Origin: Maridesulfovibrio hydrothermalis AM13 = DSM 14728 | Lineage (GTDB): Bacteria; Desulfobacterota; Desulfovibrionia; Desulfovibrionales; Desulfovibrionaceae | DNA length: 64,000 nt | Direction: 5' to 3' | Assembly (NCBI RefSeq): GCF_000331025.1 | Contig: NC_020055.1 | Span: forward strand, 1 to 64,000 | Part shown: positions 1 to 12,887 of the stretch, one piece after another | Layout: every line of letters begins with the position of its first letter | Position numbering within the stretch: the first letter of the stretch is position 1 | Made by a program: the position numbers and the translations under genes | Notes under the pieces: generated by a model | Told to the model about the DNA's origin: nothing | The model's input: only the letters and a program-made list of their open reading frames with translations | Databases searched by the model: none

Positions 1-197
1 CCTCACGATATTCTGCGTAAAGATGTCCCCGCTTTGTATGAAGCGGACGTGATACGTACCTGTCTTTTTCAACAATTTTATGCGTGGCCGGCATAGCTTT
101 TTGGTACGGACCTAATATTTCCTCCAGTTTGGATTTGGTAAAATTACGATCTAATTCGTATAACTTCGTATAATGTATGCTATACGAAGTTATTACG
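1..197. other. Assembly artefact: duplicated segment plus 454 mate-pair linker
   Basis: Bases 1-155 are identical to 6334-6488. They are followed at 156-197 by a 42-base sequence that matches the 454 Titanium paired-end linker as I remember it; loxP occupies 160-193, with the 8-bp spacer ATGTATGC. The order, end of a fragment (6488), linker, start of a fragment (198), is what a circularised fragment of about 6.3 kb spanning 198-6488 would give. The stretch is therefore best read as an untrimmed mate-pair read and not as genome sequence. Confidence 0.93.
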
Positions 198-291
198 CAT
201 TCCTCCACTGCCATCAAAGTGGTGGATAAGTGTAATAAACAGGCATGGTTTAGAATTACCTGCTCTGGACAAGCAACATGAGTGAACATAA

Positions 292-432
292 ATATATTTA
301 AACTTTTTCAGCAAAAAAATTGACTTTGATCACGACTACTTTCAGAATCTAATGAACTATTCTGATGACTGCCGCACCAGAAAAAAAGAACTTACAGATA
401 AGGCAAAGGAATTCTTTCCAGCCGCAGATTAA
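292..432 (+). pseudogene. Open tail of an unrecognised gene
   Basis: An open frame of 46 codons ends with TAA at 430-432. It has no ATG/GTG/TTG near its beginning and follows an in-frame TAA at 289-291. The encoded stretch is charged, with KKIDFDHDYF early and KAKEFFPAAD at the end. It lies 19 bases before the next gene and may be the 3' end of an upstream operon member lost at the artefactual join. I do not recognise it, and it may not be a gene. Confidence 0.25.
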
Positions 433-451
433 CCCATAACAGGAGAAGACG

Positions 452-733
452 ATGACAAAAATGACCCGAGAAGAAGAATTCAAAATCATTCAAAAAATCA
501 GAGAACTGGATGCCGAAGGCAAGCATGAAGAAGCTCATAAAGAAAGGGAAAAATTACCACTTGCCCCTCATCTCATTGAAGCAGGCAGAGTTTCAATGGG
601 CGATAAAGATTTTTTCAGCTCTGGGTTTAACCTTTCGGAAGCTGGTCCCGAAATAATTAAAGCAGGAAGAAAAGCTATTGGCGATCAGCTCTTTTTTGAA
701 AAACATCCTGGACTTTCAGAGCTTACAAAATAA
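452..733 (+). CDS. Small hypothetical protein, 93 aa
   Basis: An AGGAGAAG ribosome-binding site lies a few bases before the ATG. The 93-residue product is hydrophilic and begins with a charged helical region (REEEFKIIQKIRELDAEGK). It contains a weak internal repeat: AGRVSMGDKDFF near residue 49 and AGRKAIGDQLFF near residue 71. There is no signal peptide or membrane segment. The next gene starts 9 bases downstream, so the two are probably co-transcribed. I do not recognise the family. The position, among plasmid-type mobilization genes and IS remnants, suggests an accessory gene. Confidence 0.6.
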   Translation: MTKMTREEEFKIIQKIRELDAEGKHEEAHKEREKLPLAPHLIEAGRVSMGDKDFFSSGFNLSEAGPEIIKAGRKAIGDQLFFEKHPGLSELTK

Positions 734-742
734 GGATAATAA

Positions 743-1294
743 ATGGGAGAAAAGAATTTTAAAGCAAGATTTTTATATAAGCTGAATGACGACTGGAAAG
801 CTTATCAGCAAAAAGAAAACACTCTGGAAGCCATAGCCTTTCAAAAAGGATTGGCCGGAACCATCACCTTATACAAAGAAGCAGCCGAGTATGGCCCAAA
901 ATCAATTCTTGAAACCGAACAAATGATTTTAGCTCAAGAGATGGGCCTTTATGCAAATTCACCTGAAATGCTCAGCAGCCTAATTCCAGCTCTACAGGAA
1001 CTGAAGGATGCACTGGACTGCTTTGAACAGGTTTACGACAAAGATGGTTATACTCAAAGCAGTAAGCTTTTCAGCGGCAAAAATAAGCAAGGCGGACTAC
1101 CTCTTGATACTGTGAGAAAGTTCATCTCCAGCCATCAGGCAAGGCTTTCAAACAGGCTTAAGGAAAATAGCTCTCGCCAAGAAAAAAAAGTCCTGCTCCA
1201 GCGTAAGGGCAACCTTAAAACAGCAAACGAAGCATATAAAAAACTACAAAGAAAAGCTCTCGGCATTGAAAACGCCAAGGGCATATCAAGATAG
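743..1294 (+). CDS. Hypothetical protein, 183 aa
   Basis: Second gene of a likely two-gene operon, starting 9 bases after the stop of the previous one with a GGATAA site before its ATG. The 183-residue product is predicted to be mostly helical and is strongly basic in its last 60 residues (RLKENSSRQEKKVLLQRKGNLK). There is no membrane segment or recognisable catalytic motif. The basic tail would fit nucleic-acid binding, but that is only inference. No family was recognised. Confidence 0.6.
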   Translation: MGEKNFKARFLYKLNDDWKAYQQKENTLEAIAFQKGLAGTITLYKEAAEYGPKSILETEQMILAQEMGLYANSPEMLSSLIPALQELKDALDCFEQVYDKDGYTQSSKLFSGKNKQGGLPLDTVRKFISSHQARLSNRLKENSSRQEKKVLLQRKGNLKTANEAYKKLQRKALGIENAKGISR

Positions 1295-1547
1295 CAGGGA
1301 ACTCTGAGGGGGGATTCTTGATGTCTATTAATCACACATATGAGAAACTGTTCTTTTCTTTCTGAAATTGGATACCACAGGTTTTCAAAGTTATTTCTAT
1401 TTTCATAACACGTAATCACATTGCTCAAGAAATAGATATACGCGACTCCCTCAATATTATATCTATGCTAAGAACTCTCTTCTGCGAAATTGTCATGATT
1501 TCTTCAAAAATTATTGCCAGTCGCCCAAAACTGGAAATTTTGCCCAT

Positions 1548-1949
1548 CTAAAACAGCAATGTTTTCCAGAATGGAACAAATTCGCCACCAGAAGTAAGGC
1601 AAACTTCTATTTGAAGAAACCATGCAGAAAGGCAAGCTACAAGTATGTAACTATATGAAGAAATGTAAAACAGAGGTTTGCTTGGCATGAATTCTATTTT
1701 TGCTGCAAATTCGGGGGTAAGCATTTCAGCAAGTGTGTTTTTTTCAAGAAATATCCATATAAACAGCAAAAAATATGGAACGTATGTCATCCAAGCCATA
1801 AAAATTCCTGCTCCGATACCGAGACATATAAAAAGCGGGAATTTAATCCAATTGTTACATGTCAATTTGTGAAGGATAGGTGGGAAAAGGAAATTAAAAA
1901 GAATTAAAATAAGACAAGTTTTACCAATCCAAATTAATAAGTCGATCAT
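1548..1949 (-). CDS. Hypothetical inner-membrane protein
   Basis: The chosen start gives a product of about 133 residues beginning MIDLLIWIGK. A longer reading frame begins 15 bases further upstream, but a G-rich stretch, a plausible ribosome-binding site, lies just before this ATG. Hydrophobic segments at about residues 5-23, 37-65 and 98-115 predict three or more membrane spans. The gene stands alone, convergent with the preceding pair. I recognise no family. Membrane proteins of this size are common in mobile-element cargo, but no function can be assigned from sequence. Confidence 0.5.
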   Translation of the reverse strand: MIDLLIWIGKTCLILILFNFLFPPILHKLTCNNWIKFPLFICLGIGAGIFMAWMTYVPYFLLFIWIFLEKNTLAEMLTPEFAAKIEFMPSKPLFYISSYSYILVACLSAWFLQIEVCLTSGGEFVPFWKTLLF

Positions 1950-2142
1950 CACGCCCCCCCCCATTTTTTTTATATAATTATTTCAATTATTACAATGGCA
2001 ATGTTCAGGGAAGCTTAATACTCTTTATAAATGAGGATGTAAAGACCCCATCCTAGGTCCACCTACAAGTAGAGACTCCGCTCGGTAGGTGATGATTAAT
2101 ATTGATAAATTGAGGGGGGCATCGGAGCGATTTTGATTGGCG

Positions 2143-2683
2143 GACTGTTATCCTCTATGTCTTCACAGCTACGCAGGCATGTTTGGGTCGGATATGCTGT
2201 TTAACTGTGATTTTTTGAGGGACTATATCTAGTTTTTCGCTTATAACCTCATAAATTCTGGTCAGTCGACAGCCACAGGCACAGATTTTTTCTTCAGCGG
2301 GAATGTCATGGATAATTTCTTCGCGGGCGAAATTTTCAGGGATGGGCTTGTGTCCCTTCTTTCGAGAATAAGCTTCAACTGAAACAATTTCTTCTGTTTC
2401 GGACTCTTCAAGGGGTTCAAAATCTTTGTGTCCTGCAACAAATTCGGCCTCATCAAACAGATTGCATTGTTGTTCATTACGCTCCGGCTTTCTCTGCTGT
2501 TCTGTTTTTTTGGCAAAATAAAGAGCTTTAAAAATCCTGACTTGTTTAGCAAGTTATTCAATTACAGCATCTTTATCAAAAATAAGCTGATCTTGCTTAG
2601 TAACTTGTACTTCAAAAGAGTTAATTAACTCTTTAAAAAACTTGGGATCATTAGGTAGGCCAGCTATTTTTATAATCACCCTC
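2143..2683 (-). pseudogene. tnpC: IS66-family transposase (TnpC) N-terminal fragment
   Basis: Read on the minus strand from a GTG with GGAGG upstream (about 2683), the frame gives the typical start of an IS66 TnpC: LPNDPKFFKELI, then a helical region, QQCNLFDEAE, and the zinc-like stretch CACGCRLTRI. An in-frame TAA interrupts it after KDAVIE, near 2560. The similarity is lost after KHACVAVKT, so the DDE catalytic core is absent. This is a decayed, truncated insertion sequence. It lies between an unknown membrane gene and the RloC-like gene and shows past transposition at this locus. Confidence 0.75.
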
Positions 2684-3066
2684 CTTGAATAGAATAGGAT
2701 TATGGCATACTAGAAAATTAAGGGAAGATGCCGTGGGAGACGGCTACTTGAAAAGGAACATCGGCCGGAATCTGAAGAGCCATAATTTCTGGATGTTTGG
2801 ACCCTTAAAAATGAGAGAAATGTTGATTGGGTAAAATTGCTGACGATTGGATTGGAAAGCCTTCCGGTGAACCAAATGAGAATGGTATTAACGAGGAGGA
2901 AGGTAGAATGAAGCTTCCATCCAATCCGGTTAGTTATAGCAACCCCGACATGGCTATTTCATTCAAGGAAGCTGTTTTATAGTAACAGAAATCCAAAGAG
3001 CAATGTGCACAGTATGGAATTAAGTAATATTGTCCTTGCAGGGGCAATTTATAGATATGGAGGTGA
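2684..3066. other. Gene-poor stretch upstream of the RloC-like gene
   Basis: No complete gene is visible. An open frame from about 2700 reads WHTRKLREDAVGDGYLKRN before stopping near 2830. A 24-codon ORF with a good GAGGAGG site begins at about 2909 (MKLPSNPVSYSNPDM). Both look like ends of lost genes and I recognise neither. The stretch presumably also carries the promoter of the gene starting at 3073. Confidence 0.35.
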
Positions 3067-3072
3067 TTGCTG

Positions 3073-5496
3073 ATGAGCGGTGAGATAAAAAGAATTGATT
3101 TAATAAAAAAAATGGCGGTCTTTCAGGATTTTAGCTGGTCTTCAGCTGTCAGAGATGAAGGTGATAATGTTGTTGAGTTTAAAAAAATTAATATCTTTTA
3201 TGGCCGCAATTATTCGGGAAAAACTACCCTTTCTCGAATTTTCAGAGCAATGGAAACCGGCTCCATTTCAGACAAATATACTTCACCTGAATTCCAGTTG
3301 AGTTTTGATGATGAGACTAATGTTACCCAGAAATCTCTGAATGGACATGATCAGGTTATTCGGGTTTTCAATGAGGATTTTGTCAAAGAGAATCTTCGCT
3401 TTATCGTTGATGATCAGCATACTATCAACTCGTTTGCAATTTTGGGTGAAGATAACGCCAAGCTTGAGAAAGAAATCAAACAGCATGAAATCGATCTTGG
3501 TTCGGAAGAAGACAAATCTGGCCTGATTGGTAAGATGCTTGAAGCTGTTGAGAATCACCGGTTGGCTACAAAGAAGCATAGCGAAAGGTCTTCTGGCTTG
3601 GAAGGTAAATTAAGAGATAAGGCTAACAAAACCGGAACTGGCATTAAGCATAATAAAACATTTGGTGATGCGAACTATAATTTACCAAAGATTAAGGAAG
3701 ACATAAAAACAGTCACTGCCAACTCGTATACTCCGATCACTTTTGAGCAAGTTGACAAGTATCATGAACTCTTGAAAGAAGAATCTAAGGAGAAAATTCC
3801 GGAATCCACAGCCTTCAACCTTAAAAACTCGACTTTCGTCACCAGGGCAAAAGAGCTGGTAGAAAAAAAGATCCAAGCAGCAGATCCGATTCAGGAATTG
3901 CTTAATGATGCTGTCCTTGAAGCATGGGTGCGGAATGGACGGGAACATCATAAAAACAAAAGAACAAAATGTGCTTTTTGTGGCAGTGATCTTCCGGCAG
4001 ATCTATGGGAAAAATTGGATAAGCATTTTAATCAGGAATCTGAAGATTTGCGAATTGCCATTGAAGCTTTGCTTACGTCTATTGATGTCGAAAAGAGTCG
4101 TATACCTAATCTGCTTAAAATCAAGAGCTCGGATTTTTATTCGAATTTCAGTTCAGATCTGGAAACACTGGGAAAACAATTTTCTGCCCAATCAACTGCG
4201 TATTGCAAAACACTTGAATCGATAAAAGAACAACTTGAGAAACGCAAAAGTGATATTTTCACTCCTCTTATCTTTGATGATCCGACATCCGTTGAGCAGG
4301 AGTTGAATGCTGTTCGAGACTTTTATGAAGAGCTGAGGAATGAATCAAACCAATTTAGAGCTTCATTAAGTGCTCAGCAATCAGAGGCCCGCGCAGCTCT
4401 TCGCCTGCATGAGGTTTTCACATTTATAACAGACATAAAATATGCTGATGAATGCAAAGCTATTGAAGCATTAAAAAAGGCCATGGATAAGGCGGAGAAA
4501 GCCAAGAGCACCGCAAAGGCAGAAGTTGACACCAAGAAAGCTAAAATCAGCGAACTAAAAGCCCAGTTGAAAGATGAAAGCAAGGGTGCCGATAGGGTTA
4601 ATGATTATCTGAATAATTATTTCGGGCACCCGTTTTTATCTCTTAAAGCAATAGAGGATACATCCGATGATACTTCCACTGGATACCGATTTGAAGTAAC
4701 CAGAAATAACAAAAAAGCTTTTCATCTCAGCGAAGGAGAATGTGGGCTGATTGCTTTCTGCTATTTTATGGCCAAGTTGGATGATGTTGAAACGAAGGGA
4801 AGCCAACCAATAATATGGATCGATGATCCAATCTCCAGCCTAGATGCAAATCATATCTTTTTTGTCTACAGCCTGATTAATGCCGAGATTGTTAAGCCCA
4901 AGAACTATAAACAACTTTTCATTTCTACTCATAATCTAGATTTCTTGAAGTATTTAAAAAGAATTTCTAATGACTATAAAGGAAAAGGTGAAAACAAGGT
5001 AAAGATACGGGAGTTTTTTCTAATTGAACGCAACGGTAATTCCAGTTGTCTGTCGTTAATGCCATGCTATTTAAAGAGATATGTGACTGAATTTAATTAC
5101 CTTTTTCACCAAATCTATAAGAGTGCAACAACCGAATCAATAAATGACAAGAACTACAAAGATTTCTATAGCTTTGGGAATAATGCCCGAAAATTCTTTG
5201 AAATTTATTTGTATTACAAATACCCAAATCAGGGAATGAACGCAGAAACTCTTAGTTATTTCTTTGGAGATGAAAAAGTTCCAGCTATTTTGACTGATAG
5301 GATCAATAACGAATATTCTCATTTGGCTGGTGTTTTTGAAAGAGGTTCAACACCTATTGAAGTTCCTGAAATGACGACAACGGCAAACTTTATTCTTCAG
5401 AAGATTAGAGAGAAAGACCTAGATCAGTATTCGGCGTTACTGAAAAGTATTGGTGTAAAAGATGAGGAACCCCAAACAGCAGTGGAGGGTCAATGA
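3073..5496 (+). CDS. rloC: RloC/PrrC-like anticodon nuclease with ABC-type ATPase
   Basis: The product is about 807 residues. The chosen ATG has GGAGG nine bases upstream; a TTG six bases earlier is the alternative. It has a P-loop (GRNYSGKTT, about residue 46), a long coiled-coil middle with a CAFC zinc-hook motif, an ABC signature (LSEGE) and a Walker B (WIDDPISSLDA). Near the C terminus, R708, E712 and H752 (counted from the TTG) reproduce the Arg-x3-Glu...His triad of PrrC/RloC tRNA anticodon nucleases. In that family the ATPase senses DNA damage or phage infection and releases the nuclease, which stops translation. Its stop overlaps the start of an SbcD stump. It may instead be a related AAA_13 protein without nuclease activity. 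Confidence 0.75.
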   Translation: MSGEIKRIDLIKKMAVFQDFSWSSAVRDEGDNVVEFKKINIFYGRNYSGKTTLSRIFRAMETGSISDKYTSPEFQLSFDDETNVTQKSLNGHDQVIRVFNEDFVKENLRFIVDDQHTINSFAILGEDNAKLEKEIKQHEIDLGSEEDKSGLIGKMLEAVENHRLATKKHSERSSGLEGKLRDKANKTGTGIKHNKTFGDANYNLPKIKEDIKTVTANSYTPITFEQVDKYHELLKEESKEKIPESTAFNLKNSTFVTRAKELVEKKIQAADPIQELLNDAVLEAWVRNGREHHKNKRTKCAFCGSDLPADLWEKLDKHFNQESEDLRIAIEALLTSIDVEKSRIPNLLKIKSSDFYSNFSSDLETLGKQFSAQSTAYCKTLESIKEQLEKRKSDIFTPLIFDDPTSVEQELNAVRDFYEELRNESNQFRASLSAQQSEARAALRLHEVFTFITDIKYADECKAIEALKKAMDKAEKAKSTAKAEVDTKKAKISELKAQLKDESKGADRVNDYLNNYFGHPFLSLKAIEDTSDDTSTGYRFEVTRNNKKAFHLSEGECGLIAFCYFMAKLDDVETKGSQPIIWIDDPISSLDANHIFFVYSLINAEIVKPKNYKQLFISTHNLDFLKYLKRISNDYKGKGENKVKIREFFLIERNGNSSCLSLMPCYLKRYVTEFNYLFHQIYKSATTESINDKNYKDFYSFGNNARKFFEIYLYYKYPNQGMNAETLSYFFGDEKVPAILTDRINNEYSHLAGVFERGSTPIEVPEMTTTANFILQKIREKDLDQYSALLKSIGVKDEEPQTAVEGQ

Positions 5497-5585
5497 AAAT
5501 CCTACACACATCAGACTGGCACTTGGGCGTTTGCGCAAAGGCGGACTGTCAGATCAAATATGAACCCTTACAATTAAATCCGTAG
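5493..5585 (+). pseudogene. SbcD/Mre11-type nuclease, N-terminal stump
   Basis: The ATG overlaps the TGA of the anticodon-nuclease gene (ATGA), a sign of translational coupling. The first 12 residues, MKILHTSDWHLG, are the hallmark N terminus of SbcD/Mre11 phosphoesterases, with the metal-binding D and H. Similarity stops there, and the frame ends after 30 codons inside the 3' end of the oppositely transcribed relaxase gene. This is the surviving tip of a gene cut off by rearrangement. Confidence 0.75.
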
Positions 5586-6137
5586 GTTAGGGTTTTGCCT
5601 AAGGGAGATTTTGGAGGAACATTGCCTGCTGATAACATTTCCTTTAATCACCGTCTTTTTGCCAAACATACGCTTAGCAAGTTTTTCAGCCACGATTTTT
5701 GCAGTAGAATCATTAATACTGAAGAAAATTTTATCCCCATTATCCTTAACCATACCGCCGCTTTTTAGCGAGTAGAGAACATTTCCTGAAGAATCTACAC
5801 GCCATGTTATTTTATCCAGACTACGTTTATTGGTGTCATTTGATCGCTTAGCCTCTTCGGCCTGCAACTGAAGCATTTTGGCAATGGAAATCAATTTACG
5901 CTTATCCTTCCAGACCAAGCTGGAATCCACGCGGATCTGATTCTGCTTCAGCTTCCAGTTAGATGCTGAAGGATTTGCTTTTGCAAATTCTTGCTGTACC
6001 TTTCTTTCAATGGGGGCTTTCTTTGACCGCAGCACCTGCAAAGCCACTTCATCACCACTTTCAGCTTTCCATTTTAAAAAATCATTCCAACGGCTGAAAG
6101 GAGTTTGCTTTCGCAGCTCCGCACGCTTTCCGGCCAT
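5574..6137 (-). CDS. traI: TraI-like relaxase, C-terminal part (LPD7-like domain)
   Basis: This open frame encodes the C-terminal 187 residues of the relaxase whose N-terminal part lies at 6242-7219. The stretch ITWRVDSSGNVLYSLKSGG...DKIFFS resembles the LPD7-type domain found behind TraI relaxase domains. In this frame the coding sequence continues upstream without a stop to a run of seven A residues (minus strand) near 6314-6320, where the N-terminal part changes frame. One extra base there would join the two into a protein of about 550 residues. The separate start codon at 6137 is therefore probably not used. Confidence 0.7.
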   Translation of the reverse strand: MAGKRAELRKQTPFSRWNDFLKWKAESGDEVALQVLRSKKAPIERKVQQEFAKANPSASNWKLKQNQIRVDSSLVWKDKRKLISIAKMLQLQAEEAKRSNDTNKRSLDKITWRVDSSGNVLYSLKSGGMVKDNGDKIFFSINDSTAKIVAEKLAKRMFGKKTVIKGNVISRQCSSKISLRQNPNLRI

Positions 6138-6241
6138 TTCCTTTTTTAGCGACTCGATAGCCTCAATTTTTTTGCCCGCAGCAATAGCAATCAGCCTGCT
6201 TCTATCCTTTGGTCGGAGCGTACGGTCATTTCTGAGAGATT

Positions 6242-7219
6242 TTATCTTGCTGTCCCAATAGGAAACATTCTGCTCCCAACGCTCGTCCTGTTCAGACCTG
6301 AGTTCTTCGTAGATTTTTTTCTGACGGCTATAGCCTCACGATATTCTGCGTAAAGATGTCCCCGCTTTGTATGAAGCGGACGTGATACGTACCTGTCTTT
6401 TTCAACAATTTTATGCGTGGCCGGCATAGCTTTTTGGTACGGACCTAATATTTCCTCCAGTTTGGATTTGGTAAAATTACGATCTAATCTACTGGCTTTT
6501 ACAGCTGTGTCAGAATGTTTATCTTTGATAATGCAGCCATTACCTCTGGTTTTGACCTCGATGCCAATCTGCGCCATCGAATTATGAAAATCCTGCCAGT
6601 TCTGAGACGTTTCTAATGCCTTGAAAATAAAATCCTTGCGCTCATTTAGATATGAATCAAAGGATTGCTGTCCGGAATGGGCCTCATAAGTGGCCGCCCG
6701 GTCATTGGTGCGCTTTGGTTCCTGATCTTTCTGTCTGCCGTTATCAAACTTCAAGCCGAACTTCTGTTCCAGCTCACGGTGCAGGCGGTCTCGCTTGTAG
6801 AAGTCCCGGTAAGGCTCGTAGCGGGTCAGCTTTTCCGGATGGATCATATTATATGCGATATGCATATGAATATTGTTGGTATTCTTGTGAACACCACAAT
6901 GCCGCTGGTGTTCCTCAAAGCCCAGAGCCTTGGAAAATTCCTGCTCGATCTCCTTGAAATTTTCCGGAGTGAGGACAGATTCATCTTCCGGTCTGAAGGA
7001 CACTATTAAGTGATAGGTCTTCTCCTTGCTCGTGCGCTGATTCAGATCCTGAGTATCAAGAACCTCCTGAATAGCCAGCTCATAATCCTTACCAGCCCAG
7101 CAACCGGCGCACCAGGACATCAAGGTCTTTTCACCCTTGTGCTTAGCGTCAGCAATATAATCGGCTAACCGCCGATAATTATCATTCTGGGGTTTGCAAG
7201 AAATCCTGCGACTAATCAT
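6242..7219 (-). CDS. traI: TraI-like MOBP relaxase, N-terminal catalytic part (frameshifted)
   Basis: Relaxase of conjugative or mobilizable plasmids, which nicks oriT and leads the strand into the recipient. The metal-binding three-histidine motif is visible as HKNTNNIHMHIAYN near residues 111-124, and the N-terminal region matches P-type (RP4 TraI/VirD2-like) relaxases. It starts within an ATGA overlap with the stop of the TraJ-like gene. The last 25 or so residues are out of frame: after EAIAVRKK the proper frame continues as IYEELRSEQDERW and on into the 5574-6137 part. The change lies in a homopolymer, so a sequencing error is the likeliest cause. Part of this gene (6334-6488) is duplicated at 1-155. 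Confidence 0.85.
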   Translation of the reverse strand: MISRRISCKPQNDNYRRLADYIADAKHKGEKTLMSWCAGCWAGKDYELAIQEVLDTQDLNQRTSKEKTYHLIVSFRPEDESVLTPENFKEIEQEFSKALGFEEHQRHCGVHKNTNNIHMHIAYNMIHPEKLTRYEPYRDFYKRDRLHRELEQKFGLKFDNGRQKDQEPKRTNDRAATYEAHSGQQSFDSYLNERKDFIFKALETSQNWQDFHNSMAQIGIEVKTRGNGCIIKDKHSDTAVKASRLDRNFTKSKLEEILGPYQKAMPATHKIVEKDRYVSRPLHTKRGHLYAEYREAIAVRKKSTKNSGLNRTSVGSRMFPIGTAR

Positions 7220-9261: not shown

Positions 9262-10314
9262 ATGATAGAATATTTACCACTAGAACGGGATATAGAAACA
9301 AAAGCTGTTCTTAAAAAGCTTGCTATAGCCGAGCGCGCACTCGGAACTCTACGTGGTGTTGCCAGCAAAGTTCCGAATGAAGATATTTTGGTTAACACCT
9401 TATTTTTGCAAGAGGCGAAGGCCAGTAGTGAAATAGAGAATATCGTAACAACACATGATGAAATCTTTAAGGCCCAGCTCGAAATAGGGCATAATTTAGC
9501 AGCTAAAGAGGTAGAAAATTATTCTCATGCTCTTAGGGAAGGTTTTTCCATTGTTAAAGAGCAGCAGCTTCTGACCACAAATACTGTTTGCACCATTCAA
9601 AAGCGGCTGGAAAATAATAATGCAGGGCTGCGCCGACAGAGCGGAACCACGCTAAAAAATATTAGCGGAGAGGTTGTTTACACTCCACCTCAAGATTATG
9701 ATGAAATTGTTTGCCTGATGTCTAATTTAGAGAAGTTTATCAATGATACCGATTTGTCCGATCTGAATCCACTTGTTAAAATGGCAGTTATTCATCATCA
9801 ATTTGAAAGTATTCACCCGTTTTATGATGGAAACGGGCGTACTGGACGTATCATTAATATTCTTTACCTTGTTCTGACTGGTTTACTGGATACTCCGGTT
9901 CTTTATTTAAGCGGATATATTATAGATACTAAAAAGCAGTATTACGATTTGTTGCAAAAGGTACGTGATGAGAGAGATTGGGAAGAGTGGATACTTTATA
10001 TATTGACCGGAGTTATTTTAACATCACAGGAGACTGTTTTGTTGATAGAGAAGATAATCGCGCTCATGCAGGATTATAAGCATTCTATCCGGGATAGGTT
10101 TCATAAGATGTATAGTCAGGATTTAATTAATAATTTGTTTAAATATCCTTACACTAAAATAGACTTTTTAGAGCAGGCACTCGGAGTGCATAGGCAAACT
10201 GCCGCTAAGTATTTAAATAGTCTGGCAAATGAGGGCTTTTTGAGTAAGGTTTCTTTGGGTAAAAGTAATTATTACCTTAATACAAAGCTTATAGAAATAT
10301 TAAAAAGTAGATAG
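9262..10314 (+). CDS. Fic-family protein (predicted AMP-transferase) with winged helix
   Basis: The 350-residue protein has the complete Fic active-site motif HPFYDGNGRTGR at residues 185-196; its His is catalytic in Fic enzymes, which usually transfer AMP to a target hydroxyl. The N-terminal helix contains SSEIEN (residues 55-60), matching the self-inhibitory [S/T]xxxE[G/N] pattern, so it is likely a class II, self-regulated Fic protein. The C-terminal 90 residues look like a DNA-binding winged helix (GVHRQTAAKYLNSLANEGFL). A copy of its last 104 codons or so lies at 23612-23925 beside array B. The target is unknown; Fic proteins of this layout occur in toxin or regulatory roles. Confidence 0.88.
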   Translation: MIEYLPLERDIETKAVLKKLAIAERALGTLRGVASKVPNEDILVNTLFLQEAKASSEIENIVTTHDEIFKAQLEIGHNLAAKEVENYSHALREGFSIVKEQQLLTTNTVCTIQKRLENNNAGLRRQSGTTLKNISGEVVYTPPQDYDEIVCLMSNLEKFINDTDLSDLNPLVKMAVIHHQFESIHPFYDGNGRTGRIINILYLVLTGLLDTPVLYLSGYIIDTKKQYYDLLQKVRDERDWEEWILYILTGVILTSQETVLLIEKIIALMQDYKHSIRDRFHKMYSQDLINNLFKYPYTKIDFLEQALGVHRQTAAKYLNSLANEGFLSKVSLGKSNYYLNTKLIEILKSR

Positions 10315-11699: not shown

Positions 11700-12887
11700 A
11701 TGCCTTTAACTATAAAACAAATTGAATCATCCAAGCCCAAGAAGAAGCTATACCGAATCTCCGACAACAACGGTCTTTGTTTAGAAATTACTCCTAACGG
11801 GTCTAAAAGGTGGCGGCTCCGCTATCAATTTAATCGCAAAGCAAAAATGCTCTCTTTAGGATTGTATCCAGAAGTAAATTTAAAAGATGCTCGCAATCTA
11901 GTGTTTGAGATGCGCCAGTCTCTAGCGAAAGGATTAGACCCATCCCAAGAGCGACAAGAGCAGAGGGCGAAGGTAGACGGCAGTTATAGTTTCAAAGCTA
12001 TTGCAGATAAATGGTTTGCGAAAAAATCATTAACTCTGACAAACAAAAAAGACAGACAAACGATATACGGCAGACTAGTAAATCATGTATTTCCTTTCAT
12101 GGCCGATAAATCCATTTTTGAAATAACGAATAAAGATATGGTTGCGATCCTTGAGCGTTTGGAAGCCATGAATCTGCACGAGACAGCCAAGCGAGTTAAT
12201 TTAACTTGCGTACATATTTTTAATTATGCTCGCGTATCAAATCCAGAATTGAGTAACCCTGCTAGCGATACCAAAGCGTTACTCATTCCCGCATCAAAAA
12301 GAGTTAAACATTTTCCTGCCATCACGAAACCTTCGGAGATTAAAAAACTTCTGCGGAAGATAAAAAATTTCAATGGAACTTTCAGTGTTGCTCAGGCATT
12401 AAAATTTATTCCGTATACCTTTGTGCGCTCTCGGGAATTACGCAGTGCCGAGTGGTCAGAAATTGATTGGGAAGCACGCGAGTGGCAAATTCCCGCTCAT
12501 AAAATGAAAGCTCCGAGACCTCACATTGTTCCACTTTCCACACAGGTCATAGACATATTAAAGAAAACCCAACTTGTAACAGGGCATAATAAATATGTTT
12601 TTCACAGTGACCGTAGCAAGGAAGGGATATTAAGCGAGAATACCATAAATCAGGCCTTACGACGTATGGGGTACTCAAAGGATGAAATGTGCTGTCACGG
12701 GTTCAGGACTACAGCGAGTACCCGTCTAAATGAGGAATTAAAGTACATGCCAGACGTCATAGAGCGTCAATTGGCCCACGGTGAGGCAAATAAGGTTCGG
12801 GACGCTTACAACCGTGCTGAGTACTTAGAGGAACGTCATAAGATGATGCAGGAGTGGGCTGACTATTTGGATGGGCTGGCGGGATAA
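11700..12887 (+). CDS. int: P4-type tyrosine integrase
   Basis: A 395-residue tyrosine recombinase of the P4/phage-like family that uses tRNA 3' ends. The N terminus (MPLTIKQIESSKPKKKLYRI...GLCLEITPNGSKRWRLRY) is the arm-site-binding domain of that family. The catalytic residues are present: R243 (VRSREL), H333 and R336 (CHGFR), H360 (LAHG) and Y370 (DAYNR). It begins 183 bases inside the attachment site at 11501-11517, the expected place for the integrase of an integrative element. No excisionase adjoins it, but an AlpA-like protein at 19.7-19.9 kb could serve. Confidence 0.95.
   Translation: MPLTIKQIESSKPKKKLYRISDNNGLCLEITPNGSKRWRLRYQFNRKAKMLSLGLYPEVNLKDARNLVFEMRQSLAKGLDPSQERQEQRAKVDGSYSFKAIADKWFAKKSLTLTNKKDRQTIYGRLVNHVFPFMADKSIFEITNKDMVAILERLEAMNLHETAKRVNLTCVHIFNYARVSNPELSNPASDTKALLIPASKRVKHFPAITKPSEIKKLLRKIKNFNGTFSVAQALKFIPYTFVRSRELRSAEWSEIDWEAREWQIPAHKMKAPRPHIVPLSTQVIDILKKTQLVTGHNKYVFHSDRSKEGILSENTINQALRRMGYSKDEMCCHGFRTTASTRLNEELKYMPDVIERQLAHGEANKVRDAYNRAEYLEERHKMMQEWADYLDGLAG

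Follow-up and report, generated by a model that had tools for sequence, protein, structure and literature searches.

The genome sequence deposited for the deep-sea bacterium Maridesulfovibrio hydrothermalis AM13 carries a loxP site close to its first base, which raises the question of whether this is a natural Cre target, a trace of engineering, or a remnant of the sequencing itself. The window analysed here is a stretch of 64,000 nucleotides at the start of contig C2 (3,703,034 bases), whose sole companion in the assembly is contig C1 (5,328 bases). We regard it as virtually certain that the loxP at the window start is a leftover 454 Titanium mate-pair linker and that the same fault made C1. 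The site is no biological feature.

Sequencing project and library protocol

The strain, as Desulfovibrio hydrothermalis AM13T, was sequenced on the 454 GS FLX Titanium from an 8-kb mate-pair library and assembled with Newbler and Consed, giving contigs of 284,269 and 3,418,665 bp plus a 5,328-bp plasmid, described as circular, whose G+C content is 51.1% (PMC3587943). C1 likewise has a G+C content of 51.1%, and exactly 100 N stand at C2:284270-284369, after 284,269 bases. The library is of the kind that the original prediction had suggested seeking in the project record, namely 5-8 kb mate pairs. The 454 Titanium 8-kb protocol joins 42-bp loxP linkers to the fragments, closes these into circles with Cre and shears them again, so that a single linker bridges both fragment ends (PMC6992861). 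The fragments implied by our analysis, 6,291 bp in the window and 5,286 bp in C1, are of the right order of magnitude, but both fall short of the nominal 8 kb, a weak point of the linker reading.

The junction at the window start

Direct comparison within the window bears out the claim that bases 1-155 (plus strand) repeat 6334-6488 exactly, with 155 of 155 positions identical. The identity breaks off precisely at 155/6488, where one copy goes on with TCGTATAACT and the other with CTACTGGCTT. Bases 156-197 (plus strand) read TCGTATAACTTCGTATAATGTATGCTATACGAAGTTATTACG. This 42-mer includes a perfect 34-bp loxP at 160-193 (plus strand) and is expected by chance about 4e-19 times in 3.7 Mb. The identical 42-mer and its reverse complement are listed as mate-pair adapter sequence (PMC5199103), and the comparison with a published linker that had been called for thus ended in letter-for-letter agreement, upholding the identification as the 454 Titanium paired-end linker. 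The 42-mer is non-genomic, in keeping with the library protocol (PMC6992861).

The sequence at 1-155 is the displaced end of a mate-pair fragment and comes from the interior of a MobA/VirD2-like relaxase gene; its proper place is inside that gene at 6334-6488 (minus strand), on an ORF (6242-7219) that matches the Pfam families Relaxase and TraI_middle. The other end of the fragment is the true genomic start at 198-301 (plus strand); here lies a small gene of which the contig has the 3′ end but lacks the 5′ part. The left flank of the linker reappears downstream on the same strand, and the fragment 198-6488 spans 6,291 bp; distance, flank order and orientation all agree with the proposal that the order 6488-linker-198 arose by circularising a fragment of about 6.3 kb. 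A 96-aa chimeric ORF reads through the linker at 2-289 (minus strand), with the signature peptide VITSYSIHYTKLY, and is spurious.

The second copy of the element

The element has a second copy at C2:2.13 Mb, which runs unbroken through both junction flanks and carries no linker. In this copy the relaxase continues uninterrupted across the point equivalent to 6488, and the small gene, complete here with 88 codons (L009 5381-5647), crosses the point equivalent to 198. Window bases 198-301 are identical to this copy at 104 of 104 positions (L009 5560-5663). The sequence due upstream of base 198 is absent elsewhere in the assembly, where its homologue matches the copy 2 region only, and for this reason we take base 198 to be the real contig end. 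The last 20 kb of C2 has no sequence in common with the window. The recommendation that the first 197 bases should go is therefore sound, 198 being the true end. The warning that the loxP is neither a natural Cre site nor evidence of engineering also stands, given the linker-free paralogous copy, the position at a contig end and the 454 Titanium library.

Several further features of the element were seen. Relative to copy 2, about 720 bp is absent at window 300-301, which could be a real deletion or a further joining error near the contig end. The relaxase frame (6242-7219) differs from copy 2 by single-base lengths in two T runs, which may be typical 454 homopolymer indels or real decay. A large AAA_13 ATPase (3067-5496) and a Fic protein (9262-10314) lie near the mobilisation relaxase and a tyrosine integrase (11700-12887), and the region is possibly a mobile element with defence-type cargo.

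Natural site, engineered site or linker

A loxP could also have come from a P1-like phage-plasmid, which has the same 34-bp core, and 673 plasmid records, mostly enterobacterial, do match. However, the P1-type records among the matches listed cover linker bases 4-40 only, as against 1-42 here, and it is on these outer arms, which therefore separate the linker from a P1-type loxP, that a natural origin was rejected. Among the plasmid records the full 42-mer was seen in Nonomuraea gerenzanensis only. Moreover, the site lies at a contig end with a displaced 155-bp duplicate immediately on one side and a truncated gene immediately on the other, no P1-like context was seen around it, and no P1-like protein was found among the handful of window proteins scanned. 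We give a natural site next to no credence. Equally negligible is the chance that the strain underwent a real tandem duplication or was engineered to carry loxP. The exactness of the 155-bp direct repeat speaks for such an event, but the linker is present in two unrelated elements, in both in the order of an in-vitro circle, and is absent from copy 2 and from an independent viral contig. The genome paper describes a type strain and does not mention engineering (PMC3587943).

For the mate-pair linker, the following course of events is proposed. The genomic fragment 198-6488 would have been sheared out, fitted with loxP linkers and closed into a circle by Cre in vitro, which would place 6488 beside 198 across one 42-bp linker. 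A junction read running from 6334-6488 over the linker to 198 and onwards would then have been left unsplit and become the start of the contig. In C1, the contig of a tail module would have been closed as a circle by a read passing from its right end over the linker to its left end. The sequences, their order and distances, the library type and the linker-free continuity are directly observed; the event at the level of the reads we infer, with the joins made by an editing or assembly step and not by the cell.

The published 5,328-bp plasmid

A search of the whole assembly for the 42-mer, in line with the suggestion that other contigs be checked, found it twice, at window 156-197 and once more at C1:208-249. 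The fault in the published plasmid is beyond what the window alone could show. The products encoded on C1 include a C-terminal portion of baseplate J, tail protein I and a large fibre-like protein; in Pfam only Baseplate_J and Tail_P2_I were matched, the remaining ORFs giving no match. Without its linker, C1 is a linear, phage-type stretch of 5,286 bp. A viral contig (L019/L023) of IMG genome 2523533539 contains C1:250-5328 at 995-6073 with 100% identity, and C1:1-207 follows directly at 6074-6280 with one mismatch and no linker. Sequence belonging to the C2 tail cluster described below lies on either side of this copy. By its 99.9-100% sequence identity over about 10 kb, the IMG genome is of the same species as AM13T and probably the same strain.

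We conclude that the published 5,328-bp plasmid is almost certainly an artefact. That C1 is a genuine 5.3-kb plasmid or an excised phage circle, in which the linker is just a local error, appears highly improbable. It was published as circular, and its terminal ORF does continue in frame from 5328 into 1-207, but L019/L023 has the same 5328/1 join within ordinary linear phage sequence, and the 42-mer is the sole join that closes the circle. The baseplate J gene is cut at C1:250, and its absent N-terminus lies upstream in L023. The Pfam matches are to tail proteins only, and no replication family, of the kind that a plasmid with a replication gene of its own would show, was found on C1 in Pfam. 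The cluster at C2:232-243 kb probably had a second copy that was collapsed in assembly, and C1 is probably the alternative tail-fibre module of that copy. The right-hand fragment end of C1 lies at most 3 bp from the point where the alternative module rejoins the shared sequence, and the only explanation we can offer for this odd coincidence, a weak point of the reading, is selection, since other reads would not circularise the contig. No relatives of the C1 baseplate J were found in genome contigs. In the literature we found no challenge to the plasmid; among the papers searched, its accession appears in the original one only.

C1 was also considered as the filler of the N gap after base 284,269 of C2 and rejected, as the gap adjoins conjugation-type ATPase ORFs and has flanks of poor quality, and C1 belongs to the 232-243 kb cluster. 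The ATPase ORFs beside the gap are VirB11-like by inspection. The flanks themselves (C2:284000-284269 and 284370-285700) are homopolymer-rich and resemble poor-quality read tails, and false ORFs are likely there.

The tail cluster and its two modules

On both sides the C1-type stretch has flanks that are 99.9-100% identical to the tail cluster at C2:232-243 kb. Between these shared flanks C2 has one version of a module, here A, and C1 is the other, B; in IMG genome 2523533539 each version has a contig of its own (L022, L023). The genes of the cluster encode a MuA-type transposase, a late activator, lysis-like products, and sheath, tape-measure, hub and baseplate proteins, a combination of a Mu-like transposase with a contractile tail cluster that was noticed over C2:220000-243600. 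No capsid or terminase genes were seen in that interval. A search for the Mu portal gave no match, but gave none in the control genomes either, and no relatives of the C2 MuA protein were found among viral contigs. Possible identities of the cluster are a tailocin and a defective Mu-like prophage.

Two arrangements could account for modules A and B, namely two prophage copies or a single locus that switches between the modules, and the latter we consider unlikely. The near identity of the shared flanks, with 755 bp on the left and 5,436 bp on the right free of any difference, speaks for a switching locus. However, some 5.4 kb beyond the module there are five sites at which the two viral contigs disagree, and C2 is like A at three of them and like B at two, as would be expected of two collapsed copies. 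Module B is found nowhere else in C2 and is therefore not stored there as a silent cassette. Because C2 is a mosaic of A and B sites, we consider two near-identical copies, collapsed in assembly, likelier than one switching locus. The mosaic was located at C2:242493-242612, and both viral contigs end at the same base, 99 bases beyond the last difference. Taken together, we tentatively propose that AM13T has no 5.3-kb plasmid and possibly carries two near-identical Mu-derived tail clusters, candidate tailocins (phage-tail bacteriocins) differing mainly in the receptor-binding module, one of which collapsed out of the chromosome and left its fibre module behind as a false plasmid.

Consequences for the records

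The needed correction extends well past the first 197 bases. These are to be removed from the window start along with the spurious 96-aa ORF, and the loxP should not be taken for a Cre site or for engineering. FO203523, the record of the plasmid, looks like an artefact, and from FO203522, the chromosome, a second prophage-like cluster is probably missing in part or in full. Both records may also contain annotated ORFs that derive from the linker and are spurious.

The linker in other assemblies and known systems

In the genome collection, 109 stretches contain the exact 42-mer, from the assemblies of at least nine other species (a count taken from the 80 of the 109 stretches that were listed), and four viral contigs have it as well. 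After exclusion of two loci where linkers stand in short tandem arrays, a 25-base flank was followed at 129 distinct linkers and recurred nearby in the mate-pair direction at 30, in the opposite direction at one and inverted at one. The exact 42-mer with a flank duplicated at kilobase distance is a simple test that exposes the fault in other public assemblies. In Nonomuraea gerenzanensis, NZ_LT559118, listed as an 11.85-Mb 'plasmid', has the exact 42-bp linker at 3643221-3643262 and linker-like matches at six places; at the one of these six that was looked at, no flank duplication was found within 12 kb.

The closest known counterparts of the window-start junction are the loxP/Cre junction reads of 454 GS FLX Titanium libraries, with which it shares the exact 42-bp linker, the end-linker-start order, the kilobase-scale spacing and the library type; it differs in that the linker here persists at a contig end of a finished, deposited sequence. 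The loxP of the P1 phage-plasmid is similar in its 34-bp core and some adjoining bases, but among the matches listed it lacks the linker's outer arms, which are TCG at the left end and CG at the right. Linker-contaminated drafts, including those of Paracaedibacter symbiosus PRA9, Legionella tunisiensis, the Rickettsia endosymbiont of Diachasma alloeum and Gemmata IIL30, among others, have the same 42-mer, many with the same-direction duplication of the flank. Unlike these drafts, the AM13T genome was presented as complete and gave rise to a plasmid record.
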